Shown one piece after another: positions 13,201 to 34,804 of a DNA stretch of 53,670 bases. Each line of letters begins with the position of its first letter. The stretch's first letter is position 1. The notes beneath the pieces are model-generated. The model was not told the origin of the DNA. It saw only the letters and a program-made list of their open reading frames with translations, and searched no databases. Location of the stretch: the IMG/VR virus record IMGVR_UViG_3300048918_000117, positions 1 through 53,670 of that record; one strand, given 5' to 3'. The translations under genes were made by a program, and so were the position numbers. This DNA comes from a virus.

Positions 13201-16200
13201 GCCAGGAGCGGGACATCGTCCTTGCGGAAGGTCTTGTTGACCCACGCCTCGAAGTCCATCAGGTCCTTGGCGTCGGCGATCCGGTCGAGGAACTCGTCGA
13301 TGCGACCGAGAGCCTGGATCTTGCGCATCGCAAGCACCCAGGGGTCGGTCGGGTCGCTGATCGCGTTCTCCAGCGTCTGGTTGTCCATCTGGAACTTGTG
13401 GATGAGCACGTTGCGGAACATGATCATCGCAGCCTCTTCGGGCTGTGCGAGAAGCATCTCGTAGACCCAGCGAGGAACGGTCGCGACGTTGATCTCGCCG
13501 TTCGGGTCGGCAGGCAGGAACGCCTGCAGAGTCTTCGGGAACAGCTTGAGGACCTGCTTGATGAGCTCGGTGTTGGTGCTGAGCTCGGTTGCCAGGTGTG
13601 CCGGGCCTTCCTTGCGCAGTCGCGCCAGGTTGAGCGGCTTGCCACGGAACTGCCGGGACACGCGGTCCAGGATGTCGCGGACACCCTGCATGGCACGGAG
13701 CATGTCTTCGTGCTCAGCCCGGTTGAGGGTAGCCAGCTCACCGAGCGGGCGACCGTTCTCACCGTGGGTCAGTTGAGTGTCCACGTTGCCAGTCACCGTG
13801 TCCACGAAGAACGTCCACGGGGTCATGACAGTGCCCGACTCGTACGGGAAGCCGTTCTTGACCGGCTTGCCGTCGAAGGTCGTGGCGGAGGCGGGGTCGC
13901 GCCTCCAACGAGTCCGAAGCGCGCTACGAGCATCGGCACCGAGGCCCATGTAGCGCGCGTTGATCATAGCCATGCTCTTGCCGGTCAGGTTGTGCTTGGC
14001 GGCGAGCTCGTCACCGACAATCGCCTCGACAGGCATGGCTGCGACCAGAGCGTTCGATGCGCCTTCTGGACTCAGGTTCCGATAGTATTGGATGCGCTTG
14101 GACTGCTCGCTCTCGTCGAGGCCGCTGTTGCGGGCCTCCATGTCAGCAGCGCTCCGCATGATGAGCTGCAGCACAGACACCGTGTTGCGCTCGCCGCGTC
14201 GCGTCTCCCAGAACGGAATCTGGTTGTTGACATCGTATTCAGTTGCCTCTGCAACAGTCATGGCCGCCAGGTTCGGCAGCACGAACTGGAGAGGAACGTC
14301 CGGGTACAGGACCTTCGCCAGGGCTTCGACGTCCTTGCGGGCCTGTGCAACGATCGGGTCGGCGTTCTTGACCAGCTGGTCGATCTTGCTGGTCTGACGC
14401 CCGCTGTTGATCGCGGTGTAGATGCGGATGAGCTCCTGCATCATGGGGTTCGGGTTCTCGTAGTTGCCCGAAACGAAGTCCTCGTTGTTGTACGAGTTGT
14501 ACGCGAGGCGAGTCTCGTTGCGGAACGTGTCCGAACCGTACGTAGCTTGGTGCAGGCTGATGCCGAGCGTGGAACCGGCCTGCGCAGCCTCGGTGCTCAC
14601 ACGACCGGCGACCGCCTCCGGCGTGGACGGCAGAGCGCCGTTCTCGTGGAGCAGCTGAGTGGTGACTCGCTGCGCGTTCTTCATGCGGAAGTCCTGCTGG
14701 TGAGCCTGGATGAGGCCCTCGATCAGCAGGATCGAGGAGCGGTTCTCGTAGACACGCGTGATCGGCTCGGCGTCGCCCTGCGGAATCTGGACCTCGGTCC
14801 GGAGCATGGACAGACGCTCCATGTTGTCAGGGTAGAGGCTGGCTAGCGTCTTGTAGAGGTTGGCCTTCCAGTCCTCGTTGCCGGAGCCGTACTCGCCGAC
14901 CATGTCGTTGCCATTCGAGTCCTTGACTCGGACGCGCAGCTGCGTCGCCTTGTCGACGCGGGACTTGCCGACAGCCTGCTCGACGACCTCGTTCGGGATA
15001 CCGACCGTCGCGAAGATCTTCTTGAGGCTCATCTCGAGACCCATGAGGAAGTTGTTCGCGATCGCGTTGTGCTCGTCGTCGGGGCTGGTCAGGGACTCCT
15101 GCACCAGCTGACGAGCATCCATCTCGTACTTGCGGTCGGGGACGTTGTAGGTACCGTCCGGCTTCTTGAGGAAGCTACCGTCCTTGATGCGCTGAGCTGC
15201 AATGCGGTTGATCGGGGCTGCACGAAGCTGCAGCTTGGCCTGGTCGCCGTCGGTGTCGGCGCTCAGGGCGTCGAAGACGGACTGGGACAGCTGCAGCACG
15301 CCGTTGCCGGACAGGATGTCGCCGTAGCCGTTGTCCATGCCCTGCGACAGCGAGTGGCTGACCTGCGGCACGATCGGGACGAACGAGCCGGGGTTGTCGT
15401 TCGGGTAGCGGGACACCATGAAGATGCCCTCGGTACGCGTGAACTCGTCGGACTGAGGGGGCAGGTTGCCGTTGTCGTCCGGCATGTAGCCGTTGGCGAT
15501 ACTGTTGAACAGGCCGTTGATCGAGTCGACCGCACTGAGGTCGCCGGTCAGGTAGAGCTCGTGCAGGTCGTCGAAGATCTGCTTGGTCCGCATGTGGAAC
15601 GCGAGAGCCTTCTGCGCGTACTCCAGGTTCGCCTGGATGTCTTCGGCGTTCTCGGACTGCTGCAGGTCCTTCTGACCGGCCTTGATGACGTCCTGCAGCT
15701 GCTGGATCTTGTCCGACAGCATGTGGCTGGTGGACTCCCAGGACTGGTAGCCTGCGTCCTCAAGACCCTTGCGGATGTCGGAGATCGGAGCGAGCGCGCG
15801 CATGTTCTCGACGCCGTCGCCCTGCAGCTTGATGCGGGCCTCCAGGTCGCTGGAGGCGTCGTACGCCTGCTCCAGGAACGCGTTGGTGTAGGCCTGGTCA
15901 CGCTGCCAGTCACGGGCGATTCGACGCATGCCCTCGCCCATGATGCGGGTCTCGTGCGTCTTGAGTGTCGTGGCGTCAGCACGAGCGGCGGGGTTCATCG
16001 CCTTGAGATCCTTCATCGTGATCTCAGGCTCGCCGTTGACGAAGTTGCGAGCGTTGATGCGGTCCAGGTCGCGCTGGTCGTTGTTCTGGTTGCGAGCAAC
16101 GCGAGCGGCGAAGTGTGTACCGGCAGTCTGGCCAGCACCACCGGCGAAGCCCATGAGCGCGGCCTGCACGATCTGGTCTCGCATGCCGTTGGTGTCGGAG

Positions 16201-17780
16201 TAGCCGACAGCGACGTTGTCGAGGACGGTCTGCGCGACCTCTTCGACCGCCTCGTGCCAGCCGTTGGTGATGACCTGGTACATGGCGGGAGCGTGGTGGA
16301 TGCGCTCAGCAGCGTTGAACAGGTCCTGGCTGGTGATCTTCGCGCCGGTCTTGTTGGCGGCGAGAGCAGCACCACGCAGGCCGACCCACTCGATCATGGT
16401 GGAAGGAGCCAGGAACGCAGGCACAGCATCGGCGATCTTGCGCCCGAGCGAGCGTTCCTGGACCGCCCAGTTGCCCGCGTCGTCCTGGATGCGGGTGAAC
16501 GTACGGCCACCGGCCTGCGTGACCTCGCTGGTCGCTGCACGCTCGGCACCGATCGCAGCTTTCGCGCTGCGGAACAGGATGCTCGGCACGAACATCTGAG
16601 CAGCGTCGATGCCAGCAGAGGCGGCAGCAGCGAGCACGTTGTCCGGCGTGACCCAGCTCTGGCTGTAGTCGCTCCAGACCTTGCCACCGGTCAGGCTCAG
16701 CGCCTTGCCAGTGGCGGCAGCGCCCATGCTGGCGGTGTACGCGACACGACCAGGGGCGCTCGCAGACAGCAGAGCGGAGTCACCGAACTGCAGCACGCCA
16801 TCGAGCACGTCTGCGCCGAGACCCTTGTTCTGGGTCTGGTAGTAGGCGGACTGTCCGTCGCCGATACCACCCGGCAGGGCAGCGTCATAGATGCCGTGCT
16901 CAATCGCACGCAGGGTTCCGGAGTTCATGGCCAGACCGCCGAAGGCCTGAGCAGCACCACCGATACCGACGGCGGCGTTCTGCTTGAAGCCCTGGCTGGT
17001 CTGGTCGGTCGCGCGAGCAGCGAGGTCGATGACCTCGTCCCGGTTCAGCAGACCGCCGACGAAGCCAGCGATCGAGCCACCCACAGCGCCCCACGGACCG
17101 AACGCCGCGCCCTGCAGGGCACCCATGCCGGTCTGAGCAGCGATGGCGATCGGAGCATCGAAGCCCGACTTCTTCCAGTCGGCCTTGAGCTTGGAGACAC
17201 GTTCCTCGGTCTCGCGGCTGGTAAGGCCAGCTTCGACCGTCTTGCCTTCCTTGGTACCCTGCTGGAGCGTCTGCTCCTTGATCGCGTCCTGGTTTCCGTC
17301 GGCGTCACGGTAGATTCGACCCGCGTCTTTCCCCGTAACGAGCGGAGTCAGGATCGCGTTGGCCTCTTCGGTGGTGACGTTCGAGTTGTGGTCGTACAGG
17401 TTGTATTGGAACTTCCCGTTCTCGTACACGTCACCGGTCTTGAAGTTGCGCTTGTCCGGGTCGCCGTCCTTGAACTGCTGATCCCAGGTAACGATACCCG
17501 TGAAGTCCTTGTTCTGGAACAGACGAGACTGGTAGGTAGGATCAGCGTCGATCTTAGCCTGCTCAGCATCGCGCTGCTTGCGCATCTGGTCGTAGAACTC
17601 GTTGCTGAACCCGGACTTTTCGCTGTTCGGGTTGCCACCAGTCTGCCACGCGGGAAGGCGGTTCGGATTCTGGTTGCCAGCTTTGACACCGTTGAAGTTC
17701 GACCAGTCCGTCGTCAAACCACTTGGAGCGTTATCCTTCGGGGTGTTGTCCTGACCGAAGGTGGACCAGTCTGTTGCCAC
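4287..17780 (-). CDS. giant virion protein (4497 aa) with RNA-polymerase beta-prime-like catalytic motif
   Basis: One uninterrupted frame takes a quarter of the genome. The start is GTG at 17778-17780 after AAGGAGTTACCG, and the stop overlaps the portal ATG. The N-terminus (1-200) is polar. Residues about 217-243 are Gly/Ala-rich and hydrophobic, and 640-740 are predicted coiled helices. Residues about 787-850 run from MVSRYPNDNPGS to VLQLSQSVFDALSADTDGDQ. The DTDGD aspartates are D842, D844 and D846 (bases 15243-15257), and this stretch aligns by eye with the NADFDGD region of RNA polymerase beta-prime. A compact alpha/beta-like region lies at about 2617-2677. Two hydrophobic stretches near 3812-3856 and 3900-3915 could cross a membrane, and the C-terminus has a poly-Gly linker. 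Position before the portal, and size, suggest an ejected internal virion protein. I cannot place the second barrel expected of a two-barrel RNA polymerase. Confidence 0.75.
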   Translation of the reverse strand: MATDWSTFGQDNTPKDNAPSGLTTDWSNFNGVKAGNQNPNRLPAWQTGGNPNSEKSGFSNEFYDQMRKQRDAEQAKIDADPTYQSRLFQNKDFTGIVTWDQQFKDGDPDKRNFKTGDVYENGKFQYNLYDHNSNVTTEEANAILTPLVTGKDAGRIYRDADGNQDAIKEQTLQQGTKEGKTVEAGLTSRETEERVSKLKADWKKSGFDAPIAIAAQTGMGALQGAAFGPWGAVGGSIAGFVGGLLNRDEVIDLAARATDQTSQGFKQNAAVGIGGAAQAFGGLAMNSGTLRAIEHGIYDAALPGGIGDGQSAYYQTQNKGLGADVLDGVLQFGDSALLSASAPGRVAYTASMGAAATGKALSLTGGKVWSDYSQSWVTPDNVLAAAASAGIDAAQMFVPSILFRSAKAAIGAERAATSEVTQAGGRTFTRIQDDAGNWAVQERSLGRKIADAVPAFLAPSTMIEWVGLRGAALAANKTGAKITSQDLFNAAERIHHAPAMYQVITNGWHEAVEEVAQTVLDNVAVGYSDTNGMRDQIVQAALMGFAGGAGQTAGTHFAARVARNQNNDQRDLDRINARNFVNGEPEITMKDLKAMNPAARADATTLKTHETRIMGEGMRRIARDWQRDQAYTNAFLEQAYDASSDLEARIKLQGDGVENMRALAPISDIRKGLEDAGYQSWESTSHMLSDKIQQLQDVIKAGQKDLQQSENAEDIQANLEYAQKALAFHMRTKQIFDDLHELYLTGDLSAVDSINGLFNSIANGYMPDDNGNLPPQSDEFTRTEGIFMVSRYPNDNPGSFVPIVPQVSHSLSQGMDNGYGDILSGNGVLQLSQSVFDALSADTDGDQAKLQLRAAPINRIAAQRIKDGSFLKKPDGTYNVPDRKYEMDARQLVQESLTSPDDEHNAIANNFLMGLEMSLKKIFATVGIPNEVVEQAVGKSRVDKATQLRVRVKDSNGNDMVGEYGSGNEDWKANLYKTLASLYPDNMERLSMLRTEVQIPQGDAEPITRVYENRSSILLIEGLIQAHQQDFRMKNAQRVTTQLLHENGALPSTPEAVAGRVSTEAAQAGSTLGISLHQATYGSDTFRNETRLAYNSYNNEDFVSGNYENPNPMMQELIRIYTAINSGRQTSKIDQLVKNADPIVAQARKDVEALAKVLYPDVPLQFVLPNLAAMTVAEATEYDVNNQIPFWETRRGERNTVSVLQLIMRSAADMEARNSGLDESEQSKRIQYYRNLSPEGASNALVAAMPVEAIVGDELAAKHNLTGKSMAMINARYMGLGADARSALRTRWRRDPASATTFDGKPVKNGFPYESGTVMTPWTFFVDTVTGNVDTQLTHGENGRPLGELATLNRAEHEDMLRAMQGVRDILDRVSRQFRGKPLNLARLRKEGPAHLATELSTNTELIKQVLKLFPKTLQAFLPADPNGEINVATVPRWVYEMLLAQPEEAAMIMFRNVLIHKFQMDNQTLENAISDPTDPWVLAMRKIQALGRIDEFLDRIADAKDLMDFEAWVNKTFRKDDVPLLAYTSDTFLSDLSATRGGWQWISSNTERREAMRNLQQYVNLAGGRIKTIADNEADDLAYDQQIRQNPSIKKLVKTRIEQALLFQNPTVAGDTQQLAVLTLVEGIDNNAAKKGESGFGTKGLGDTEALFQGRLFASVHELATMERFSIYVDELTANPRRLLQPLRIQMDDGSTFDWNPTDANGEVDVEGWLDMYKAKNGFFKPLFQQIFWPSSYSTDGEGQTRMVTQKAGRGLQEWVDGSHYRRLQESDSFWDSHEYVRLVQSLHGDYLVTELLTALMTLRSGQSAEAHAKHENSYENAVVDLARALKTVGNLTPDNVKMYKDLARTTALKTKAGELDPLMPSIARVIDEEQQKILLAKQNAKSPEELAALQLQEYILHAQAQAQTAAEYTLASTKFDWANADQVTLMKANLTQYLNRYADDLTSMSDNKESQAITQWKRNPDSLKEGDWDLISTAIATNLEVQPSRRSPDTVNNGSYFSTDAYQFFMRGDRSYLTDMLYDLAASASKFRATAYGVETPATPVDDVPKALGDILHLDDMPPHSPDYVIQHISAREKIRSAAGMHEIDALGSGFKRLETQMSSNRRTFKRPTLDMARKMVLTDEEALDIVNLAAAGYPVGGVDLNILQGATVHSTGDRNAVDLLDPYSEANDNVGIMVNMTLADGRKVSLPIQRLSNGIDPTVSVDLEDKSDVTDPTYRTFDVDRFAAAYQTINIPEGGKIDSVELSYFHPLDTPIGEEYANNLAFGGRIGVADSDYGDSLTQAFYFGVQSANQQGTRAVFDSRKNATSAIQKLGIVSPAGTDYAGNLEAFIQDEVRGFMAIERDGQPLDRYNYRYAYKTVVDHMMLTDEAGKSYTPYQILQGAQPEGNLQVTWLSETVLNTLRGGFDRFAQAALRPVGATYVNNQDPWTGQYSDDMLALVPKLGNVDISTPKGRKQFLQQLSASRLASTARVSNNLSKSIESITMRRKAIEVKNRFRKEKDEVRVDRIGNKQNIWLDINSQTLKKLSEFKATTFNLGFLTSTLTKIQKVPTEGSPDFERFMSKKQIEVLTDRLLSENAVLWWYDTNTSPAEGRDKGVLTKDTWSANSQQAVAPDLDFFAVDLSGLDRDIYGKDFQNRAKSILSDLAKRHHPIILASRDQNQVAEGKKILQSLGYYSQDGTTWEPIDNASLYANERARDAAWTYVENLDADDSHLMAYGSYTLDESGAYYDERAGLIGGTAYRNSAIATTGSTIFGTPMTHAWGNEAQTVLSQLDNMTGYAYLAEQSMLAADPELEVGQINRNSREFKLLVDTWRGRVRKAVDTLDTANGLPRKSHRTFNVGDIILTQGDNGRYRIVIAGFEPVDDVNAVSQLKRNPGGDNLPNIAVYQEKQLSTSVASTPIGTIEDWEPDPRFGLRGKFRQPMGVVANKFINITGYKARAVEVTETPLGVSSKPVLGQRHIAMYLSYRDAAKKGMLDKVQNAPGNAIAFWGFNFIPLLAEGTTATYTGGRITDASQYETLTDVQKQEVRESVIRSLRAIQQEGANDPIYVGAELADAVVHGIEKNAYLTPALAREQEMQISYPVGYKTGFTAESLAQVTASKVYLEAVTAMLKHPGTRIEDLINVPGISNIGVGNGFSFRPSPALSQAFSYDVLRTWIQRDINARLRDTSNTYDEATGELLDGYELQPSWEVKRVAQKNGKRQEHLEMYQWAHMSPTGSDYTALVEHHELTNADDRSSFQVASFGTHSAMLKTGYNVPSKRLEQIRQAAMVGSLDTAEGVAATFDTKPAWSRDRQLQTRLRSPREQIARAKATRWYRASQPRLDQRNWSDPTLYNDTVERIVNAWGLSPVGDYRYLVDQLVRQRLAALSEKDETGARSGEVFQADAEFEADQILSRIEAGEWPTEGGVLFIPDPEMVQELLAHGGKLPEGVTNMEEAFNHVMGDIILNGTQLSYQEFLPALDGFVHAWEDYFDMDIVSLDPAVRDRFIDPRDGGLYTTLDPLTQEQLEINPTDGNGRQSGMYYYGGSWNTGLKDGEYPAYIGVGKKMTYLDKRRIKKESKAKQTISQQVNEGRKMGAAITFSNRAFRVWHRWVAAVGMANPEIIIWGGAEAIRNGAQEKTLRLLTGSTVWQQQIAARTHNALTELWPSFLQSTYGQALLPGVTPFVSQEDLKLRQDVIEALAGSQEWRTQINAESKHKVIDPSAGKPEEALDKVLDVLGRMQDPTSRMYMRGKAAMYIDTILRHMHATNHPTTPRELLLMLRNNRGMLKEQAPDLHDVGSRAIQRQKGFDRTVPAAITDGLLGAARNSANPLINWSGNILKGLSVFQNFFWTTGMVTTGTQGLNAIAATLLQGSRGGKTFGNRVFNGIARNNGLENAIDLQEQVMGQTALAEAMLRGSVTQMHLFMLGLIFGSLGLTGEDEEERKRRKRNLNQGLGAWYDPEDLANDFRNYNAIYLDNIPLLGELFQAPNAEGQPERSPAQLHWTLKLFLSPAMGMADFFDTGNVAYLLEGFKDAVGSLPFSSILSVQDTANTVTALAQAAAQGADKAATPGEYADALNPLLTGALLMEKVTLENNFITSLYVNTDEYNRNPWVYGAVDESGNIVTDKLGVPQSSEAYQYKTNADGTVYEGKVYRTPEEGALRAAISERPTLATMLNIAFSTSGTINSYWRQDMVPSEVVQYKKALGFDQAEPLILSVWDPNNNREVLTRDGADRILQSLGMGSVKATDPALDGVYIDVPTRQAIMVDLQKRIYIEGRETLGLTDEEAKARVSKIWYGDKSNPYVTPLNDVVWNQGEFAGDNGLPYAQTTRYRQLNTTFATGPDGKAWATGLQRGSLYQWVGLDPYQGTQAVESQTFGLNQDGNLNATDPITQQNIGRRALQKIGSNWDIPNDADIVDAIKAAQTAITDQLKDLQAADYASYAKRGGYAFGPGGGGGGGSRYGNESLMPFLNGMNVPFADNMPNIFINNVIPRRADIRRERFSSDRGRLNNQQ

Positions 17781-18286
17781 CGGTAACTCCTTGTAGTTCG
17801 GGGACGGCTGCTACGCCTATTATACCGGCTGGCCGCCCACCGCGGGAAAATCGCCGCTAAAGCACGGCTTTGAACGACCGTTCGGGGAAGACAAGCACTG
17901 GCCCTGAGCAGGGGAATCAAGGTCGGAGTGGAAGGATCGGTCAGTCGTATCTGTCCTTGTCACCGGGGTAGAGGCAATGGCCTGTCCGGGCCTCGACGTC
18001 TCATGTGACGTATCGGGGACTGGGAACCAGGATCTGAAAAATTTGGTAACTTTTTGGGGGCAGATGGATGAAATATATAAAATACATAATAAACATCATA
18101 TACCCCCCATATATTAATAAATATATAAGTATCTAATTGGTCACAATTAGCTACTATCTAGTATCCCATCATCATCTAATATCTATTTTTTGAAGCTAGA
18201 AAGGCAACAGGTCTATGGTGCTTTTAATGCTGCTTTTAAATCATTTAATGTAAGTGTAAATCGGAACCAACAGATTGGAACGTAAC
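17781..18286. other. gene-free left part of the control region with AT-rich island
   Basis: No gene is visible. Bases 17781-18030 have the genome's usual GC-rich composition. From about 18050 the DNA becomes very AT-rich, with runs of ATATATAA and TTAATAA. A perfect 7-bp hairpin with loop GTCA (CTAATTG/CAATTAG) lies at 18133-18150. Such an easily melted stretch beside iterons is typical of replication origins. Confidence 0.6.
17819..17824 (-). promoter_or_regulatory. TATAAT box for the virion block
   Basis: A perfect minus-strand TATAAT lies 39 bases upstream of the GTG start of the giant gene, with no TTGACA-like element 16-18 bases further upstream. It is probably the first promoter of the minus-strand virion operon. 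It belongs to a set of similar -35-less boxes at 20803, 22944, 32316, 34805 and 46795. Confidence 0.55.
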
Positions 18287-18655: not shown

Positions 18656-18662
18656 CAAGTAA

Positions 18663-18700
18663 CAAATGCGTTAGCTGAAAAGCTAATGCATTTGTTTTTT
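18663..18700 (+). terminator. intrinsic terminator after the 122-aa gene
   Basis: Bases 18663-18676 pair with 18681-18694 (14 bp with one G-T wobble) around a GAAA loop, followed by a run of six T. This is a textbook rho-independent terminator and one of the few in this genome with a T-tract. Confidence 0.9.
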
Positions 18701-18878: not shown

Positions 18879-18960
18879 TAAATTTTTAATATTAACTTTG
18901 TTAATATATTTTAATTATCTTTTTATTGTTACTGTCTTTATTTATATTGTATATCACTAG

Positions 18961-19018
18961 TGCTTGTCACGTCTCTAATCACATTGCTTGTCACATTGCT
19001 TGTCACATTACGTGAGAC
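18961..19018 (+). repeat. 12-bp-phased iteron array (TGCTTGTCAC)
   Basis: TGCTTGTCAC occurs exactly at 18961-18970, 18985-18994 and 18997-19006. Degenerate copies (6 of 10 matches) fall on the same 12-bp phase at 18973 and 19009. Five units with a fixed 12-bp period next to an AT-rich region resemble iterons bound by a replication initiator. Confidence 0.65.
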
Positions 19019-19040
19019 ACGTTGATCGAGTAGTTAATGA

Positions 19041-19327
19041 GCGTAACCGGTTGTAACCGCCCGCAACCGCGGGCGTAACCGGTCCGCTTGCCATGCGGGA
19101 CATGGAAAGGTGGGGCGTAACCGGTTGTAACCGGCCGCGCGGAACCTTTCTATAGTCCACATATACTGGCAACTACTTCAGAACTACCACCTGGTTGGGG
19201 AAAACCGGTTACTTCCGGTTACGCCCCAGCTTACCATGTCTCGCATGGGAACCAGCGTAACCGTTGGGGCGGTTACGCCCGGTTACAACCGGTTACGCCG
19301 GGCCGGGTGGCTCCATGCAACGCATGG
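19041..19327. repeat. complex inverted-repeat region built from GTAACC half-sites
   Basis: GTAACC starts at 19043, 19053, 19075, 19117, 19127 and 19257; its complement GGTTAC starts at 19207, 19217, 19271, 19281 and 19291. Most neighbours are 10 bp apart. Bases 19114-19134 are the exact reverse complement of 19279-19299, and 19112-19134 match 19205-19227 at 21 of 23 positions in inverted orientation. Bases 19255-19263 and 19270-19278 form a 9-bp hairpin. Three CCATG-N5-CATGG hairpins lie at 19091-19105, 19234-19248 and 19313-19327. A cooperative protein-binding locus such as an origin or operator cluster is the likely reading. Confidence 0.75.
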
Positions 19328-19471
19328 GCTGGAGGCAGAGACGAGCACGAAACTCTGCTCGTGATAGGCGGCTCAAAGCGGGCTGTCTGTATTCCTGCTC
19401 AGGCCGCAAGCAATATCCAGAACTAACGTTATGTATTTTATATATGTCATTATGTCTTTGTAACGATGATG

Positions 19472-19522
19472 GGTGCTGGCTAGCACCTTGACACGGCTGT
19501 GTCACACCGCATGGCTATGCGG
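19472..19522 (+). promoter_or_regulatory. three adjacent 6-bp hairpins with identical GGCT loops
   Basis: Stem-loops at 19472-19487 (GGTGCT/AGCACC), 19489-19504 (TGACAC/GTGTCA) and 19507-19522 (CCGCAT/ATGCGG) each have a perfect 6-bp stem and the loop GGCT. The stems are unrelated in sequence while the loop, stem length and 1-2 base spacing are constant. A vestigial AAT-GGCT-ATT follows at 19527-19536. The set lies about 100 bases before the first gene of the early operon. Its function is unknown. Confidence 0.7.
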
Positions 19523-19534
19523 AGACAATGGCTA

Positions 19535-19572
19535 TTTATTGAAAGTGAAATGGTTTATTGGAAATGAAATGG
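19535..19572 (+). repeat. two tandem 19-bp repeats upstream of the early operon
   Basis: Bases 19535-19553 and 19554-19572 are head-to-tail copies of a 19-mer (TTTATTGRAARTGAAATGG) matching at 17 of 19 positions. They end 46 bases before the ATG at 19619 and directly precede TATAGA. They may be a tandem operator or activator site for the early promoter. Confidence 0.55.
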
Positions 19573-19618
19573 TATAGAGAAATCTAAGTATCTATATCGA
19601 ATAACTATAAGGAGAATC

Positions 19619-19849
19619 ATGAACCGAGAGTTCGAAGAGCAGCTGAAGACCGCTTGCCTGGACGGCGAGTGGCACCTTGCGATCGAGGCCGCTATCCGTA
19701 AGGATGCGACCGACGCGCGCAAGCACGGGTTCGTCACGTCGTTCCGGCGGCGCAGTGGCTCTGGCCACGACCTGTACGTCAAGCGCCTGCGTCACCAACG
19801 TGCGCAGGACCGTCTGGACCTGATCACCACCCGTCACAACGCAGCATAG
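19619..19849 (+). CDS. hypothetical early protein (76 aa), basic
   Basis: First gene of the main early operon, with a clear ATAAGGAG ribosome-binding site seven bases before ATG. I do not recognise the family. The N-terminus (MNREFEEQLKTACLDGEWHL) is acidic and helical. The C-terminal half is strongly basic (FRRRSGSGHDLYVKRLRHQR), so nucleic-acid or host-target binding is possible. It has no membrane segment. Small early phage proteins in this position often take over host functions; that is a positional inference only. Confidence 0.75.
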   Translation: MNREFEEQLKTACLDGEWHLAIEAAIRKDATDARKHGFVTSFRRRSGSGHDLYVKRLRHQRAQDRLDLITTRHNAA

Positions 19850-19869
19850 AGCAGCCAGGAGTAACTAGC

Positions 19870-20223
19870 ATGGTAACCATCAGCAACGCAATTCTGTTCG
19901 CAGTCATCCTGGCTGCGCTGGCCTCGATCGTCACAGGCTTTACCGTGGACACGGTGAAGCGCTGGTACGGTCAGGCCGTCGAAGACGACCTCAAGGTCAC
20001 GATCGAGAACCTGGAGAACCAGCTCGCTGATCACTCACTGATCATCGTCGAGCTGTTCAACAGCCAGGACGACAACTACGTGTCTCACCACGAGTTCAAC
20101 TACGTGGTGGACGCGTTCCAGTTCATCAGTACGCGTCACGCGATCTACGACATCCGTGTCACCGTTCGCGGCGACACGCATGACGACATCACGCTCATGA
20201 TCATGAATCAGAAGAACATCTAA
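19870..20223 (+). CDS. small membrane-anchored protein (117 aa)
   Basis: A hydrophobic N-terminal segment (ISNAILFAVILAALASIVTG, residues 4-23) is a single membrane anchor or uncleaved signal. It is followed by a cytoplasmic-type domain beginning VDTVKRWYGQAVEDD with a short coiled-coil stretch (ENLENQLADH). The family is unknown to me. The start follows AGGAGTAACTAGC, the recurring leader seen before several early genes. The stop overlaps the next start (TAATG), so the two genes are translationally coupled. Confidence 0.75.
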   Translation: MVTISNAILFAVILAALASIVTGFTVDTVKRWYGQAVEDDLKVTIENLENQLADHSLIIVELFNSQDDNYVSHHEFNYVVDAFQFISTRHAIYDIRVTVRGDTHDDITLMIMNQKNI

Positions 20224-20504
20224 TGGCGCGCGATCCGTACCGCATCCAGATCATGGATGCGCGCTACATCGATGCTCGTGCTGAGCGCGAGCGTGTGATG
20301 GCTCCGTACGATCGCAACGTGTTGCAGGCTAAGAACGCGTTGCTTCGTGAGATCGCAATCTACTACGACATCAGCATGCGTGCTGTGGCGCTCGGTCCCT
20401 GGGACTGTCCCGCCAGTCCGACCGAGATGTGCATCTATAATAGCGACAAGGATCCGAGCCATGACGCATGCATCGTATGCGGCCAGCCGGAGGAACGGAA
20501 GTGA
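20223..20504 (+). CDS. small cysteine-containing protein (93 aa)
   Basis: I do not recognise it. A charged helical N-terminal half (RYIDARAERERVMAPYDRN) is followed by a C-terminal patch with C62, C70, H80, C83 and C86, ending CIVCGQPEERK. This could bind one zinc ion, as do several neighbouring small proteins. Its ATG overlaps the upstream stop (TAATG), and the next gene begins two bases after its stop. Confidence 0.75.
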   Translation: MARDPYRIQIMDARYIDARAERERVMAPYDRNVLQAKNALLREIAIYYDISMRAVALGPWDCPASPTEMCIYNSDKDPSHDACIVCGQPEERK

Positions 20505-20505
20505 C

Positions 20506-20736
20506 ATGTACAGGAACAACATCGCACATCGACGTCGTCCAACACTTCGTCAGGCTCTGCTGTCGAACCAGGCAGTGGTCGGCTTCATTATGATCGTCGT
20601 GCTGACAGGCGCGATAATCGTACTGTTCAAGGTGGCAACACCTGTTCAGGACGTTCCATGCTCGAAGCAGAGCTCGGCCAGCATCTACAAGCTGCCGGAA
20701 GCATGGCATCCGCCACTGCTTCCGGTTTGCCGATAG
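20506..20736 (+). CDS. small membrane protein (76 aa)
   Basis: A basic N-terminus (MYRNNIAHRRRPTLRQ) precedes one membrane segment at about residues 25-44 (VVGFIMIVVLTGAIIVLF). A short tail follows, with two cysteines (C52 and C75) that would be outside if the positive-inside rule holds. The ATG lies 10 bases after CCGGAGGAAC, which favours this start over an upstream in-frame one. No family is recognised. It ends the first early sub-operon; a strong terminator follows 28 bases later. Confidence 0.65.
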   Translation: MYRNNIAHRRRPTLRQALLSNQAVVGFIMIVVLTGAIIVLFKVATPVQDVPCSKQSSASIYKLPEAWHPPLLPVCR

Positions 20737-20764
20737 CACATGTACCCGACGTGTGCTATTGGTA

Positions 20765-20800
20765 GCGTCCCAGTCCGCGACCCGAAGCGGGCTGGGACGC
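20765..20800 (+). terminator. 14-bp hairpin terminator
   Basis: Bases 20765-20778 pair with 20787-20800 (one T-G wobble) around an 8-base loop. It closes the first early sub-operon. There is no T-run; instead a TATAAT box starts two bases after the hairpin. Confidence 0.7.
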
Positions 20801-20802
20801 GC

Positions 20803-20808
20803 TATAAT
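20803..20808 (+). promoter_or_regulatory. TATAAT box for the 154-aa gene
   Basis: A perfect TATAAT directly follows the terminator hairpin and lies 137 bases before the ATG of the next gene. There is no recognisable -35 hexamer because that position is inside the hairpin. The long leader contains the palindromes at 20884-20912. Confidence 0.5.
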
Positions 20809-20883
20809 GGTTACACGCCACTCCCACCGCCTGCGGTGTGTGGCCCAAGATCCGGCACCGGCGTCCCGGCTCTTGGACCGCAC

Positions 20884-20912
20884 ACTGGGTACGGTACCCA
20901 GTAACCGGTTAC
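20884..20912 (+). promoter_or_regulatory. two overlapping palindromes, candidate operator
   Basis: ACTGGGTAC-G-GTACCCAGT (20884-20902) is a perfect 19-base palindrome. It overlaps by two bases GTAACCGGTTAC (20901-20912), a perfect 12-base palindrome made of the same GTAACC half-site that is repeated eleven times at 19043-19296. The site lies in the leader of the 154-aa gene, so a protein that binds the control region may also act here. Confidence 0.6.
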
Positions 20913-20945
20913 ACAGACCGCCCACAATGGAAGGAATACCACATC

Positions 20946-21410
20946 ATGGCACCGAAGAAGTCCGACGAGACCGTGTCCACCGAGGTCAGCGAGGCGGCCG
21001 CCGCCACCCGCGCCGAGATCGGCAACCGTCCGCGTCAGAGCGTGAAGCGCTTCGTGGAGCACTACATCGTCATCAAGGAGACCGCGCCCGACGAGCTGGA
21101 CCGCCTGTTCGGCGACCAGCAGGCGGCGCTGGAGGAGAACGTCGACAAGGTCGACAACCCCGTCCAGGCCGCGATCGAGAAGGCGACGACCGAGCTGCGC
21201 GACCGCTCGATCAAGGCCCTCGAGAACGAGGACGAGCTCAACGGCTACGCCCACTACGTCTTCGACCAGGAGACGTTCGACGAGAAGACCCGCGTCAAGG
21301 CCCCGCGCACCCGCAAGACCGTCGCCGAGAAGGCCACGGACCTGCTGGCCGAGGCGTCCGACGAGGACCTCGCCGCCCTCAAGGAGCTGCTCGCCGCTCG
21401 CGGTCTCTGA
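20946..21410 (+). CDS. hypothetical, probably highly expressed early protein (154 aa)
   Basis: It starts MAPKKSDETVSTEVSE after AATGGAAGGAAT. It is charged, alanine-rich and almost entirely helical, with a basic patch late in the sequence (KAPRTRKTVAEK) and an acidic helix after it (EASDEDLAALKELL). No family is recognised. It is a single-gene unit with its own TATAAT box, palindromic operator-like leader and strong terminator. Third codon positions are nearly all G or C, more extreme than its neighbours, which suggests high expression. An abundant nucleic-acid-binding or host-modulating protein is possible, but this is inference. Confidence 0.8.
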   Translation: MAPKKSDETVSTEVSEAAAATRAEIGNRPRQSVKRFVEHYIVIKETAPDELDRLFGDQQAALEENVDKVDNPVQAAIEKATTELRDRSIKALENEDELNGYAHYVFDQETFDEKTRVKAPRTRKTVAEKATDLLAEASDEDLAALKELLAARGL

Positions 21411-21426
21411 TCTCAACAGAACCGCC

Positions 21427-21465
21427 AAGGCCGTCACCCGCTTATCCGGGTGGCGGCCTTGCTTT
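21427..21465 (+). terminator. intrinsic terminator after the 154-aa gene
   Basis: Bases 21427-21440 pair with 21447-21460 (AAGGCCG-T-CACCCG against its partner, one T-G wobble), loop CTTATC, followed by GCTTTAT. It isolates the 154-aa gene from the next cluster. Confidence 0.85.
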
Positions 21466-21484
21466 ATGTAACTAGGAGGTAACT

Positions 21485-21775
21485 ATGGCAACACACGAAT
21501 CGTGCCTGCGCTGTGGACATCAGCAGGACAGGCACTATAATCGCCTCGGCTATTGCCGCGTCGAGAACTGCCCGTGCACCGAGTACAGCAACAGCCTGCC
21601 GGAGCCTGAGACCTTGAACTGGAAGATCAAGTTCGACAGCGACAAGCAGGAGTACCGTGGCACGATGATCATCAAGGCGGACAACCTCAAGGAGGCGATC
21701 GACAAGTTCGATCGCATCTCGTTGGACGCTCTGGTCATGCTGTCCATCAATCCCACGTCCGACAAGGACGCGTGA
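21485..21775 (+). CDS. small zinc-finger-like protein (96 aa)
   Basis: The N-terminus carries a dense metal-binding pattern: C7, C10, H12, H17, C24, C29 and C31 (CLRCGH, then GYCRVENCPC). The C-terminal 55 residues look like a small alpha/beta domain (WKIKFDSDKQEYRGTMIIKA). The exact family is unknown to me; similar short CxxCGH proteins are common in actinophages. The start follows TAGGAGGTAACT, the strongest ribosome-binding site in this cluster. It is first of six overlapping small genes ending at 22819. Confidence 0.75.
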   Translation: MATHESCLRCGHQQDRHYNRLGYCRVENCPCTEYSNSLPEPETLNWKIKFDSDKQEYRGTMIIKADNLKEAIDKFDRISLDALVMLSINPTSDKDA

Positions 21776-21984
21776 TGGATGAGCGCATTCTCGTTGCGTA
21801 CCTACACAATGGATTCTCCATGCAGGTACAGGGCAACGAGCGCAGCATCGATGTGCTGAAGCAGTTGATCGTGCCCAACACGCTAGTGAAGGGTATCGCG
21901 ATCTATACTGCTGAGCCTGTCCCGACCGAGCGTAGCAAGGTCGAGCAGCTCAACTACACAGCACTGAAAGCGCTGCGTGAGTGA
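21775..21984 (+). CDS. hypothetical small protein (69 aa)
   Basis: MDERILVAYLHNGFSMQVQ begins at an ATG overlapping the previous stop (TGATG). A GTG just upstream is an alternative start adding one residue. It looks like a compact alpha/beta protein with a central helix (ERSIDVLKQLIV) and has no cysteine. No family is recognised. Tight coupling on both sides (TGATG again at 21982-21986) supports it as a real gene. Confidence 0.65.
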   Translation: MDERILVAYLHNGFSMQVQGNERSIDVLKQLIVPNTLVKGIAIYTAEPVPTERSKVEQLNYTALKALRE

Positions 21985-22181
21985 TGGCATTCGACGCGCG
22001 ATATCCAGGCGTGTGCGCTAGCTGTGGCGAGCGCATCAAGGTCGGTGACCTGATTCGTAGCACGGATGACGGGTATGTACACGAGGATTGTGATGATCCG
22101 ATGTACCTGCCTGTCACGCGCAAGGTCGAGGTCTGCACAACGTGTTGGCTTGAGAAGCCGTGCGAGTGCGACGATGACTGA
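21984..22181 (+). CDS. small double zinc-motif protein (65 aa)
   Basis: Two metal-binding groups are visible: C11-x2-C14 with H33-x2-C36 (GVCASCGERIKVGDLI, then GYVHEDC), and C51-x2-C54 with C60 and C62 (CTTCWLEKPCEC). The first group resembles the small CxxC...HxxC proteins common in actinobacterial phages. The tail is acidic. Its ATG overlaps the preceding stop. A nucleic-acid or protein adaptor role is plausible. Confidence 0.75.
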   Translation: MAFDARYPGVCASCGERIKVGDLIRSTDDGYVHEDCDDPMYLPVTRKVEVCTTCWLEKPCECDDD

Positions 22182-22467
22182 GTCACCCGTACGTAATCTC
22201 GAGCGCGAGATCCAGTATAATAAGCTGGTGTTCGAGTTGCTGAACGAGAAAGGTATCGACCATCTCGTACACTACGATTCGTCTGGACGAACCGTAGAGG
22301 CTAAGACCGGCGTAGCTGGTCTGGCTATCCTGATCAAGACAGCACCGATGCCTGATGGTAAGGTGCTGTTGGTAGTGAAGCCTACGAACATGAAGCCGTT
22401 CGTCGAGACAATCGACGAGCGGCTTCTGAAGCAACGGCTGCACAAGTGGATCGGAGATCTCTTGTGA
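22174..22467 (+). CDS. hypothetical small protein (97 aa)
   Basis: It starts at ATG 22174 inside the last codons of the preceding gene (MTESPVRNLEREIQYNK). The middle alternates predicted strands and short loops (HLVHYDSSGRTVEAKTG, then GLAILIKTAPMPDGKVLLVV) and ends with a basic helix (ERLLKQRLHKWIGDLL). No family is recognised. An overlap of 8 bases upstream and 4 downstream makes it part of the coupled cluster. Confidence 0.65.
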   Translation: MTESPVRNLEREIQYNKLVFELLNEKGIDHLVHYDSSGRTVEAKTGVAGLAILIKTAPMPDGKVLLVVKPTNMKPFVETIDERLLKQRLHKWIGDLL

Positions 22468-22688
22468 TCCGACTCATTAGTACACGTGAACCACGCGTTG
22501 AGAAGCGTGTGGCAACCTTCGTTATGGACCCGACCATCATTGGTCTGGGTCCACATGAGCTTGAGAAGCGTCAGCGCATCTTCAAGCGTAACGAAGGTGT
22601 ACCGCCCGAGGTCTCGTTCAAGTGGATCACGGGAAAGAACGGTATGCCCGACAAGATGGAATGGACTTGGTGGGAGATCATAGCATGA
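22464..22688 (+). CDS. hypothetical small protein (74 aa)
   Basis: A GTG start at 22464 overlaps the previous stop (GTGA). The product is basic (STREPRVEKRVATF, then HELEKRQRIFKRNEG) and ends with a tryptophan-rich segment (MEWTWWEIIA). No motif is recognised. The start is chosen from the coupling pattern shared by the whole cluster. Confidence 0.55.
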   Translation: MIRLISTREPRVEKRVATFVMDPTIIGLGPHELEKRQRIFKRNEGVPPEVSFKWITGKNGMPDKMEWTWWEIIA

Positions 22689-22819
22689 TGGACCTCGAAG
22701 ACGACGAGTACGTCTGCCCTGTGTGTGGCGGACGTATGATCTATGACATCATGCTGGACATGTACCGCTGTCTTGACTGCGGACACGTCCAGGATGAGCG
22801 ACCCCCGCGGGCGGACTAG
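22685..22819 (+). CDS. 44-residue zinc-ribbon protein
   Basis: A complete zinc-ribbon knuckle pair is visible: CPVCGG (C11, C14) and CLDCGH (C29, C32), separated by 14 residues, as in transcription-factor and ribosomal zinc ribbons. The ATG overlaps the previous stop (ATGA). It is the last gene of the small-ORF cluster and is followed by a very large hairpin. A role in binding nucleic acid or RNA polymerase would fit the fold but is not shown. Confidence 0.7.
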   Translation: MMDLEDDEYVCPVCGGRMIYDIMLDMYRCLDCGHVQDERPPRAD

Positions 22820-22838
22820 CCACAGGCTGGCCGCCAGC

Positions 22839-22909
22839 CGCCGACTCTGGGACAAACCCGGGGCGCGCACCCAACCCTGTTGGCGCGCGTCCCGGGGCCA
22901 GAGGCGGCG
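22839..22909 (+). terminator. very long two-tier hairpin
   Basis: The outer stem 22839-22850 pairs with 22898-22909 (one mismatch). The inner stem 22857-22868 (CCCGGGGCGCGC) pairs with 22883-22888 and 22891-22896 around a GT bulge; the loop is 14 bases. In total about 23 pairs, almost all G-C. It ends the small-ORF cluster; no T-run follows. Confidence 0.65.
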
Positions 22910-22943
22910 AATTTCCGGGGGTGCGTCGGCCGCCAGTTCGCGT

Positions 22944-22949
22944 TATAAT
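22944..22949 (+). promoter_or_regulatory. TATAAT box upstream of the DUF932 gene
   Basis: A perfect TATAAT (GCGTTATAATTG context) lies 34 bases beyond the long hairpin and 64 bases before the ATG at 23014. No -35 hexamer is seen at normal spacing. It probably starts the replication operon. Confidence 0.5.
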
Positions 22950-23013
22950 TGAACTATCGTCACGCCCGACGATGGGTCTCAACAAAGTACCCTGTAACGG
23001 AAGGACACAGGCA

Positions 23014-24009
23014 ATGCACGAGATCACGAAGAGTGATAAGGTCTTGGCGGTACGCGAGGCTACATGGCACGGGCTCGAAGAGCTCCTGCCCGAGTACCCG
23101 ACCAGGGAACAGGCGGAGTCGCTTGTTCACGACTGGTCGGTGATCCGCGAACCTCTGTATCGCAAGAAATTTTCGGTGGACGAGCAGGGTCCACACGAAG
23201 AGTTCGAGCTGATCGAGGAATTCCAGCTGAACACTCGCTCCGATACTGGAGCAGAGCTCAGCGTGGTTCCGAGCGAGCGGATCGACATCCAGCCCCACGA
23301 GATGTGGGACATGGCAGAGCTCATTCAGGGCAACGACAAGAACGTCCAGTACGAGACTGCTGGCAGCCTTCGTGGTGGACGTGACGTCTGGATCCTGATC
23401 CGACTCAACGAGCCGGTCGTCATCAATGGCGACCCGCAAGGCGAGAGCCTGCCGTACTTCGCACTGCAGAACGGCTACGAGCCTGGTGTCGCGTTCCGTG
23501 GTCAGGCCACGAACGTGCGCATCGTCTGCAAGAACACGAGTCGGCTGTCCGACCTCGTGGCCGAGGCGAAGGGCGTGAACTTCTCGTTCCGCCACGGCGC
23601 AACGCTGCGTGAGCGGATCGAAGAGATCCAGGACGCGCTGGCTGCATGGCGTGAGTCCGTGCAGGCATGGAAGGCTCAGAAGGAGTTTATGCTGACGCAG
23701 CGTGTCAACGCTCGTCAGGCGAACTGGTTCGTAGAGCAGTTCATCGAGATGCCCCACGTGTCTCTGACCACCGACCGTGTCAAGCAGAACGTCGAGCTTG
23801 CTCGACTGGAGCTTGTCACGGAGCTCTACGGTGGCATGAACGTCGGCATCACGCACACCGCGCTCGGACTCTTCGAGGCAGCGTCCTCGTGGAACGAGCA
23901 TGTGCGTGCAGCACAGACGCCCATCACTCGGTTCAAGCGCAGCGTGCTGTCGCCGACCGACATCCTGGAGCACGCACACCACCTCGCACTTGAGGCGGTG
24001 AACATCTAG
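23014..24009 (+). CDS. DUF932 / phage-plasmid-like protein (331 aa)
   Basis: The pattern fits the DUF932 family found in phages and plasmids: an N-terminal WHGLEELL stretch, a central block with SLRGGRDVWILIRL and LPYFALQNGYEPG, and the conserved NVRIVCKNTSRL followed by RHGA. The biochemical function of this family is not established; it is often near recombination and replication genes. The ATG follows AACGGAAGGACA. It opens a long operon and its stop overlaps the next start (TAGTG). Confidence 0.75.
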   Translation: MHEITKSDKVLAVREATWHGLEELLPEYPTREQAESLVHDWSVIREPLYRKKFSVDEQGPHEEFELIEEFQLNTRSDTGAELSVVPSERIDIQPHEMWDMAELIQGNDKNVQYETAGSLRGGRDVWILIRLNEPVVINGDPQGESLPYFALQNGYEPGVAFRGQATNVRIVCKNTSRLSDLVAEAKGVNFSFRHGATLRERIEEIQDALAAWRESVQAWKAQKEFMLTQRVNARQANWFVEQFIEMPHVSLTTDRVKQNVELARLELVTELYGGMNVGITHTALGLFEAASSWNEHVRAAQTPITRFKRSVLSPTDILEHAHHLALEAVNI

Positions 24010-24392
24010 TGGCGGACAGGGTACTGAACCAGTACCAGGAACCTGAACAGGGTTCTTGGAAGCACGCGCTGGAAGTTCAGCGCAGCAGTGCTGGACAGCC
24101 TGGGCTGCTGTTCACTGCTCAGCGGTGGCAGTCGCCCATGCACGTCGAAGAGATTACCATCAGCGTTCCTGATGGTGACGAGTTCCTCGCTCCCGTGTTG
24201 GAGTGGCTTGGCCGCTCACGCACGGCGAACGAGGATACCGTACCTTCACTGGACACAGTGAAGATGTACGCAGTGTACGGACGCGTGTCCGGACACTTCA
24301 AGGAACTGGTAACCGAAGATGAGGTCGCAGAGTTGAAAGACTACTACGACCTCATCGAGGTCCAGGTGCCCTACAACTACACGAGTAACTAG
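24009..24392 (+). CDS. hypothetical protein (127 aa)
   Basis: A GTG start overlaps the DUF932 stop, giving MADRVLNQYQEPEQGSW. It looks like a soluble alpha/beta protein with an acidic C-terminal half (ELVTEDEVAELKDYYDLIEV). I recognise no family. Its position between the DUF932 gene and the ssDNA-binding-type gene suggests a part in DNA metabolism, by context only. Confidence 0.7.
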   Translation: MADRVLNQYQEPEQGSWKHALEVQRSSAGQPGLLFTAQRWQSPMHVEEITISVPDGDEFLAPVLEWLGRSRTANEDTVPSLDTVKMYAVYGRVSGHFKELVTEDEVAELKDYYDLIEVQVPYNYTSN

Positions 24393-24401
24393 GAGTAACT
24401 A

Positions 24402-24728
24402 GTGGTAACCTTTAACAAGGAACAGACCGAGGCAGTCGTCACGAACATTCGTGAGAAGATTCGTGAGACCACTCCGGTCAACGAGCACCCGGAAGGTACC
24501 ATCATCCGTGTGAAGCGTGTCGGACAGGACGGGAAGACGCGTACCTACGCGTTCATCTATGAGTCCGGATCGTGGTGGAGCACGGCAGTCAGCCGTGCTC
24601 ATGTGCACTCGCGCTACAACAACCAGGACTTCATGGAGTTCCTGGCTGCGAGCAAGACCACCAAGGTCGAGGTCGCTGCGGCGTTCGAGGTCATCAAGCG
24701 TCGCAAGACGAAGCACACCGAGCAGTAA
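24402..24728 (+). CDS. hypothetical protein (108 aa)
   Basis: A GTG start at 24402 follows GGAGTAACTA, the shared early leader. The protein has strand-rich segments (GTIIRVKRVGQDGKTRTYAF and IYESGSWWSTA) and a basic tail (EVIKRRKTKHTEQ). No family is recognised. It precedes the probable ssDNA-binding protein by 46 bases. Confidence 0.65.
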   Translation: MVTFNKEQTEAVVTNIREKIRETTPVNEHPEGTIIRVKRVGQDGKTRTYAFIYESGSWWSTAVSRAHVHSRYNNQDFMEFLAASKTTKVEVAAAFEVIKRRKTKHTEQ

Positions 24729-24774
24729 CAAGACAACAACCATCAGCAACACTTAGTAGAAAGCAGTAACTATC

Positions 24775-25488
24775 ATGGCAAAGTTCACGGGCGAGTACCC
24801 GAAGAACCTGAACGTGCAGGGTGTCCTGTCGTTCCCGATCACGAGCGACGCGGACCTCGCGGCGCTCAAGGAGTGGCGCGACAAGAAGGGCATCAAGAAG
24901 CCCAAGTTCGCCGACAAGATCGGTGGCTCGCTGTTCATCACGGACAAGATGGCGGAGCGTATCGCCGACCACCTGGAGACGGTGTACCTGCCGTTCGTCG
25001 ACGTGCTCTACAAGGAGACCGACGGCGAGAAGGGCGTCGGCCCGGCGCAGGTCAAGGAGCTCCTGGCCCTCGTCAAGAAGCGTGACTGGTCCACCAAGCA
25101 GCTGCCGCTGCGGGAGCTCACGCCGAAGGACGTGGAGAACAGGCCGGACGACAAGTACAGCCTGAAGCTCAAGTTCCAGGGTCCGTACGAGTCGGACATC
25201 AGCAAGAAGGCGATCGTGTACGACGGCAACACGCCGATGATCACGTCGCTCGACAGCCTCGACGACGAGAACGCGCTGCCCGAGAGCCGCGCGGACTACG
25301 ACGAGCTGTGGTGGGGCGCTGGCTGGACGTTCCGTGCGAACATCCGGTTCAACGCCTTCGACACCGCATCGCTCGGTGTGACGGGCTACGCCCCGACGCT
25401 GTTCCTGCTGCCCCACCTGGGCATGCCGGTCAGCGGTGGCGGCGACGGTGCCGTCCTCGAAGAGGGCGACGACTGGGCAGACGACTAA
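24775..25488 (+). CDS. probable single-stranded DNA-binding protein, DUF2815 / T7 gp2.5-like (237 aa)
   Basis: Length, beta-rich middle (SLKLKFQGPYESDISKKAIV, then YDELWWGAGWTFRANIRFN) and a short, very acidic C-terminal tail (LEEGDDWADD) match the phage ssDNA-binding proteins of the DUF2815/gp2.5 type, whose acidic tail contacts polymerase and helicase. GC-biased third positions suggest high expression, expected for a protein that coats ssDNA. The start follows AGCAGTAACTATC and a strong terminator follows the gene. The family assignment is by pattern, not by search. Confidence 0.65.
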   Translation: MAKFTGEYPKNLNVQGVLSFPITSDADLAALKEWRDKKGIKKPKFADKIGGSLFITDKMAERIADHLETVYLPFVDVLYKETDGEKGVGPAQVKELLALVKKRDWSTKQLPLRELTPKDVENRPDDKYSLKLKFQGPYESDISKKAIVYDGNTPMITSLDSLDDENALPESRADYDELWWGAGWTFRANIRFNAFDTASLGVTGYAPTLFLLPHLGMPVSGGGDGAVLEEGDDWADD

Positions 25489-25498
25489 CCATTCGTCT

Positions 25499-25529
25499 AC
25501 GGGCCAGGGGCCACAAGCCCCTGGCCCGT
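25499..25529 (+). terminator. 12-bp perfect hairpin after the ssDNA-binding gene
   Basis: Bases 25499-25510 (ACGGGCCAGGGG) pair perfectly with 25518-25529 around a 7-base loop, just beyond the stop at 25488. There is no T-run; it is probably a partial terminator that lets the SSB gene be expressed more than downstream genes. Confidence 0.7.
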
Positions 25530-25548
25530 TCCATGTCTGGAGGACATC

Positions 25549-25701
25549 ATGGAACCAATGAGTGACGAAGAACAGCTGGACTACTATGTCCAGTACATCG
25601 GCAATTGGACGGTCGAGGAGATCCGCAAGGATCCACAGACCTACCAGAACCTGATCAGTGAGTTCATGCAGTACCTGGCTGAGACAGACAGGCTGTCATG
25701 A
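25549..25701 (+). CDS. small acidic hypothetical protein (50 aa)
   Basis: A 50-codon frame from ATG 25549 (MEPMSDEEQLDYYVQYIGNW) to TGA 25699-25701, preceded by TCTGGAGGACATC, a strong ribosome-binding site. Its stop overlaps the next start (ATGA). The product is acidic and helical, with no motif. The ribosome-binding site, coupling and filling of an otherwise empty gap support it. Confidence 0.65.
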   Translation: MEPMSDEEQLDYYVQYIGNWTVEEIRKDPQTYQNLISEFMQYLAETDRLS

Positions 25702-26906: not shown

Positions 26907-27252
26907 GAACAACGCGTTCCGCTTCGAAGAAGCGGATGTGCCTTCGCCGTTCGGCATGTATGTCGACGGCGAGAAGGTGGAGCAGATCGGTGAGCCGACG
27001 CTGCACACCCACTTCCCGGGTCTCGTGGACCCGGTCACGGGCTACATCATGGAGCTCAACACTGATGAAGAGATGGGTAAGCTGATGGACAGCGATCCCT
27101 TCATCAGCGTGGTGTTCGACATCGTGAACCCCGAGGTCTTGCGTCGCATCATGCGCGTGACCGAGAGGATCGTGGTCGAGTACATCAAGGAGCTCAACGA
27201 GGACAACGACCACCCGCTGCGCAACAGCGGTGAAGGGAACACGGACGAGTGA
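26899..27252 (+). CDS. hypothetical protein (117 aa)
   Basis: The ATG at 26899 follows CTGGAGGAACTCG and overlaps the nuclease end by 8 bases. The protein is acidic (NTDEEMGKLMDSDPF, EYIKELNEDND), with one predicted long helix near the C-terminus. No family is recognised. It lies between the nuclease and the DNA polymerase in one coupled operon; the stop overlaps the polymerase GTG (GTGA). Confidence 0.7.
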   Translation: MLENNAFRFEEADVPSPFGMYVDGEKVEQIGEPTLHTHFPGLVDPVTGYIMELNTDEEMGKLMDSDPFISVVFDIVNPEVLRRIMRVTERIVVEYIKELNEDNDHPLRNSGEGNTDE

Positions 27253-29420: not shown

Positions 29421-29426
29421 CCAGCT

Positions 29427-29459
29427 GTGGTGGGGCGAGACCAGACTCCGCCCCACCAC
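29427..29459 (+). terminator. 11-bp hairpin after DNA polymerase
   Basis: Bases 29427-29437 (GTGGTGGGGCG) pair perfectly with 29449-29459 around an 11-base loop, starting six bases after the polymerase stop. It has no T-run. Confidence 0.7.
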
Positions 29460-29483
29460 GGCTCCAACAGAAGGGATTGAACA

Positions 29484-32279: not shown

Positions 32280-32315
32280 ACAGCAGGGCCGCGCCAGTAA
32301 AACCAGAAATGATGG

Positions 32316-32321
32316 TATAAT
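32316..32321 (+). promoter_or_regulatory. TATAAT box between helicase genes
   Basis: A perfect TATAAT ends two bases before the GTG proposed for the 46-residue ORF. Transcripts starting at normal distance would begin inside that ORF, so either that start is wrong or the box serves the SF3 helicase gene at 32534. Confidence 0.35.
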
Positions 32322-32322
32322 T

Positions 32323-32463: not shown

Positions 32464-32467
32464 GATA

Positions 32468-32504
32468 GGGGGCACCTGCCACAAGCAGGATGGCAGGTGC
32501 CCCC
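32468..32504 (+). terminator. 13-bp perfect hairpin
   Basis: Bases 32468-32480 (GGGGGCACCTGCC) pair perfectly with 32492-32504 around an 11-base loop. It lies between the 46-aa ORF and the SF3 helicase gene. No T-run follows. Confidence 0.7.
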
Positions 32505-32533
32505 GACCGACCGAACGAAGGGACATATATATT

Positions 32534-33943: not shown

Positions 33944-33946
33944 CTA

Positions 33947-34762: not shown

Positions 34763-34766
34763 AGGG

Positions 34767-34800: not shown

Positions 34801-34804
34801 TTGT

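Follow-up and report, generated by a model that had tools for sequence, protein, structure and literature searches.

A phased four-hairpin array upstream of the putative early operon in podophages with a giant protein: a candidate promoter for a proposed virion RNA polymerase

What would preserve a run of adjacent hairpins that share a loop and no stem sequence, and what would read them? The question is raised by a locus in the window analysed here, which is the whole of a 53.7-kb IMG/VR virus record from an actinobacterial podophage family. The family comprises Microbacterium podophages of cluster EK, Burrovirus, Arthrobacter phage MissAmericana and many IMG/VR contigs, all encoding full-length homologues, ~4,500 aa, of the window's giant protein (4497 aa, a candidate virion RNA polymerase; 4287–17780, minus strand). 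Gene order is common to them: the giant gene, a small gene, an intergenic region of ~0.8–1.2 kb, then a replication operon in the opposite direction. The corresponding window operon (19619–35792, plus strand), which we infer to be early, is ordered as in Mazun and Akoni, with genes for a DUF932 protein, a DUF2800 protein (matching the position of a Cas4-type exonuclease), DNA polymerase A, a DEAD helicase, Prim-Pol and others. Two relatives of the giant protein (L053 and L054) sit in contigs of genome_contigs MAGs binned as Propionibacterium/Propionibacteriaceae, suggesting hosts beyond Microbacterium and Arthrobacter, or else a binning error.

Hairpins and core motif

The first-pass annotation described three adjacent hairpins with 6-bp stems, GGCT loops and unrelated stem sequences, and they are present as described. 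Hairpin 1 (GGTGCT-GGCT-AGCACC, 19472–19487), hairpin 2 (TGACAC-GGCT-GTGTCA, 19489–19504) and hairpin 3 (CCGCAT-GGCT-ATGCGG, 19507–19522) all have perfect stems and lie on the plus strand. They are the only hairpins in the whole window with a GGCT or AGCC loop and a stem of at least 6 bp. Perfect hairpins with a 6-bp stem and 4-nt loop number 38 in the window, against 17.9 in dinucleotide shuffles, and the one triple at 16–18-nt spacing compares with none in 150 such shuffles. Folded as single-stranded DNA, both strands formed exactly these hairpins (z = −4.4 and −5.0).

Each of the 25 relatives examined carries an array of this kind ahead of its first early gene, so that array and giant gene occur together in 26 of 26 phages. 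Stems are unrelated between neighbours and between phages, while complementarity is kept throughout: over 83 scored hairpins from the 26 phages, 401 of 415 inner-five stem pairs were Watson-Crick, with three G-T and three A-C, in a scoring that was biased toward pairing. Because of that bias an unbiased test was made, in which the core motif described below served as anchor and complementarity was counted at every distance, with no sites chosen beforehand. Anchors came from the motif finder, except that those of the window, TinyTimothy, Phedro and L079, together with some small register shifts, were set by eye; in a few lineages, among them the window and L079, array sites were partly picked by eye too. 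Measured upstream from the core, complementarity around a 4-nt loop peaked among 22 lineages at exactly 22, 39, 56 and 73 nt (means of 4.0, 4.1, 3.2 and 2.7 pairs out of 6; background 1.64), with no further peak at 90 or 107 nt. There are therefore four hairpin positions, at a 17-nt pitch and phased to the core. The pitch holds whether stems are 5 or 8 bp long.

The fourth position is degenerate in the window, AAT-GGCT-ATT (19527–19536), its stem a weak 3 bp; the GGCT at 19530 keeps the register, lying 21 nt before the core start. In Atraxi, Phedro and Akoni the same position keeps GGCT on a 2-bp stem. Loops of window hairpins 1, 2 and 3 start 73, 56 and 38 nt upstream of the core, a register kept in the relatives. 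Two of the original details needed adjustment. Exact spacing does not hold in the window, where successive loop starts of hairpins 1–3 lie 17 and then 18 nt apart; the supposedly invariant GGCT loop is the rule in the window and in most EK hairpins, but other lineages have TGCT, CGCT, CGCA or TGCG, giving a wider consensus of NGCN.

Array plus core is single-copy in each genome scanned, and no second hairpin array was found in the window, Akoni, Burro, MissAmericana or part of Xitlalli. When viral contigs were scanned for a pattern of two GCT loops and a core, 68 matches came back; hairpins were kept in only two, and both of these contigs encode the giant protein. The first-pass annotation had proposed selection for structure plus loop, with covariation in relatives as the check; stems do change while pairing persists, and together with the phasing this makes it almost certain that the array structure is under selection. 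Rather than three separate promoters, the hairpins form one array of four, in phase with a single core.

The core was found unsupervised as the family motif ACTnTTTTTGGAAA; a motif search over the 80 nt that follow the array gave ACTATTTTTGGAAA (LL 105.6, against 36–40 in shuffled sequence). In most cases the core starts 22 nt beyond the first base of the last hairpin's loop; L078 lacks a clear one. Ahead of the array the search yielded only a weak motif, common to close relatives (LL 54, against 38–42 shuffled). By family motif and by register with the hairpins, the putative promoter core of the window is TGGTTTATTGGAAA (19551–19564, plus strand), with a putative transcription start at the GG at 19560–19561. 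The core region is also part of a window-specific, imperfect tandem duplication of 19 bp (19535–19572, repeat family D5). From the GG, a purine-rich leader with a ribosome-binding site extends to the first operon gene (19560–19618); across 22 lineages the purine fraction of the first 40 nt is 0.75, against 0.46 in an upstream control.

Two further features of the core surroundings were noted. Second core-like sites (TCTATTTTTTGAAG, TCAATTTTTGGA), lacking hairpins, occur close to the small gene that lies between the array and the giant gene, at 18182–18195 in the window, ~1,015 nt upstream of the core in Araxxi and Burro and ~1,350 nt upstream in L073; these are possibly another start site. Between the final hairpin and the GG, the AT-rich sequence often resembles a weak inverted repeat (AAAG...CTTT), which we do not claim as such, since A-rich/T-rich composition alone could produce it.

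DNA element, RNA element or origin

Three features led us to regard the array as DNA: wobble pairs are scarce, the pitch stays at 17 nt with 5-bp and 8-bp stems alike, and downstream lies a core that is in phase with the hairpins and has a start-like GG. On this sequence evidence the array probably acts as DNA and, a little less surely, as an early promoter.

A different reading, which we consider unlikely, places a host promoter upstream of the array, so that the hairpins are transcribed and fold in the leader RNA; they would then serve put-like antitermination, or offer their loops to a phage protein, so as to let host RNA polymerase read the long early operon. Hairpins set side by side with 1–3-nt linkers, at the start of a ~16-kb operon, would suit such a role, the hairpins themselves are as compatible with RNA as with DNA, and directly upstream of the window array is an AT-rich stretch (19429–19450) that has an inverted copy at 18068–18089. 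This stretch was not seen in relatives, however; an Rfam search gave no match, G-T pairs are nearly absent and no more frequent than A-C mismatches, and the hairpins keep a fixed register with a downstream T-tract/GG core. Nor was a conserved or host-like promoter found upstream of the array: sigma-70-type −35/−10 pairs, sought there and at the core, did not rise above shuffles. The purine-rich leader beginning at the GG, combined with this lack of a host-type promoter, favours a DNA element just upstream of a transcription start over RNA hairpins.

Less probable again is a replication element, in which single-stranded hairpins would recruit an initiator or the phage primase and the AT-rich core would serve for unwinding, beside a repeat-rich origin. 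There is a Prim-Pol gene within the operon, and a repeat-dense block with GTAACCGG and CATG palindromes just upstream of the array; but the types of upstream repeat vary by lineage while the hairpin array is constant, and the core, in a single orientation, runs straight into the purine-rich leader and first gene. Least likely is that the core is a promoter for host RNA polymerase and that the palindromes are dyads bound, on duplex DNA, by a dimeric activator or repressor of phage or host origin: cores are T/A-rich, some contain TATTCT-like hexamers and regularly pitched dyads recall operator arrays, but a −10 pattern is missing from cores such as ACTCTTTGGGG, no −35/−10 pair exceeds shuffles, and half-sites unrelated even between neighbours could not be read by a dimer on duplex DNA.

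The sequence upstream of the array has features of its own. The repeat-dense block (18960–19340) contains GTAACCGG/CCGGTTAC repeats and CATG-n5-6-CATG palindromes, partly as interlocking inverted repeats of up to 47 nt, and is a candidate replication origin; EK phages have similar CATGTCTCGCATGG palindromes. The AT-rich inverted repeat mentioned above is 22 nt long, with copies 1.3 kb apart, one facing the giant gene and the other directly preceding the array. It was considered as a shared promoter and dropped because it is absent from relatives. A terminator-like site (18661–18696), a 16-pair hairpin followed by a T-run, lies where the putative small gene ends.

The early-promoter reading can be framed as a mechanism. 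Four DNA hairpins, in tandem at a 17-nt pitch, would form the upstream portion of a single composite early promoter, and the core phased to them (A-rich, ACTnTTTTTGG, purine-rich start) would drive the early operon. The giant virion protein, as a two-barrel RNA polymerase, would be injected along with the phage DNA. The palindromes may extrude through negative supercoiling or through opening coupled to DNA entry, and the polymerase or a partner would then read the GC-centred loops at their fixed spacing, recognising structure and not stem sequence. The core would melt and RNA would begin at the GG.

The giant protein as candidate polymerase

The polymerase assignment starts from a signature at residues 791–846 (15243–15410, minus strand), R-x-P-x4-G-S-F ... 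D-T-D-G-D, which is invariant in the aligned relatives. This candidate catalytic barrel (DPBB-A) has what characterises two-barrel phage RNA polymerases, a DxDxD metal-binding motif preceded by R-x-P. The pattern is also present in gp96 and gp64 of Thermus phage P23-45 and in phi14:2 gp66; gp96 reads FRNPVMGHGG...VDFDGDT and gp66 reads RIPNQGQSS...SDFDIDK. P23-45 gp96 is a virion RNA polymerase fused to the tape measure, and was first recognised by its R-x-P...DxDxD motif (PMC10770324). A profile of the signature stretch ranked the validated polymerases gp96 and gp64 first and second among 81 proteins of P23-45 and phi14:2, with gp66 low-ranked and all scores weak. The same stretch of the giant protein gave weak profile matches to phage RNA polymerase beta'-type chains.

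A second barrel (DPBB-B) is more tentative. It is marked by K-x7-K at residues 2933–2941 (8958–8984, minus strand), invariant in 20 of 20 sequences, and the segment around K2933 and K2941 has a predicted strand order of b-b-a-b twice. It lies ~2,000 residues after the first, the reverse of the usual barrel order. Conservation within the giant protein is highest over its C-terminal ~600 residues (4287–6080; 37–61% identity), which end in a near-invariant RRERFSSxRGRLNNQQ tail.

Other searches did not add to this. The giant protein matched nothing in Pfam or PHROGs, six-frame searches with the Pfam RNA polymerase models PF00623 and PF05183 gave no match, and neither did a made-up catalytic-motif peptide. 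Scanning close relatives with the window protein alone also failed to give a match; alignments were needed. Confidence in the AlphaFold models of residues 573–1700 and 2080–3180 was low to middling, and Foldseek searches of the PDB with them returned no RNA polymerase. We found no open-licence paper in which the giant protein is named as an RNA polymerase or the array is described. In Burro the homologue is virion-associated at ~250 kDa, and no similarity to the N4 virion RNA polymerase was reported for the protein (PMC7302621).

Judged from sequence, the giant protein is likely a two-barrel RNA polymerase. A conserved array at a fixed distance from its core, combined with a giant particle protein that bears a polymerase-like signature in the relatives, points to the array as probably the first switch for an injected polymerase. 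We therefore lean slightly toward a tandem-hairpin early promoter used by a giant virion RNA polymerase as the overall reading. The earlier proposal that the hairpins are promoters of an injected polymerase survives in this form, as the best reading, but with one phased array in place of three promoters, a giant protein that is not N4/T7-like, and a geometry unlike that of N4. The ~4,500-aa protein, a quarter of these genomes and described as having an unknown role, gains a candidate function that can be tested in cultured Microbacterium phages.

Comparison with known systems

The put antitermination RNA of HK022 consists of adjacent stem-loops heading an early operon, acting as RNA downstream of a promoter. 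The present array is likewise a set of adjacent stem-loops at an early-operon head, but it lacks wobble pairs and has its conserved core downstream of the hairpins.

N4 virion RNA polymerase promoters have one hairpin each, with a 3-nt loop and a dyad ~11–12 nt from the start, occur as several promoters, and are used by a T7-like polymerase (PMC4496689). Supercoil-driven extrusion and dependence on SSB are further marks of the N4 type. Like those of N4 (Schitoviridae), the hairpins here are short DNA hairpins just upstream of early genes, with a GC-centred, conserved loop and inverted repeats conserved as pairing and not as sequence, and there is a giant virion protein that would be injected. 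They differ in being four phased hairpins with mostly 4-nt NGCN loops, in placing the nearest dyad ~29 nt from a putative, unmapped start, in forming one array per genome, and in accompanying a non-T7-like protein with a DxDGD signature. By analogy the array would work like an N4 hairpin promoter, while falling outside the N4 type in hairpin number, position and polymerase type.

With P23-45 gp96 and gp66 of crAss-like phi14:2, the resemblance is in the polymerase: a giant virion protein with an R-x-P...DxDxD signature, expected to transcribe the first genes. The difference is that the candidate second barrel here follows the first, ~2,000 residues on. P23-45 virion RNA polymerase promoters have been described as an AT-rich motif, and a hairpin array was not mentioned (PMC10770324).

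A structure-read, sequence-free DNA code of fixed pitch would be a distinct way to specify a promoter. To our knowledge, hairpin promoters come only from N4-type phages, and we know of no two-barrel, cellular-type phage RNA polymerase that uses them; the array suggests that hairpin promoters also occur with cellular-type polymerases. We raise, tentatively, a new promoter class: a giant two-barrel virion RNA polymerase, its barrels reversed and ~2,000 residues apart, would use four tandem extruded hairpins as a structural ruler, their 17-nt pitch being fixed. If so, recognition of hairpin promoters would have arisen separately from N4, in a cellular-type RNA polymerase lineage.
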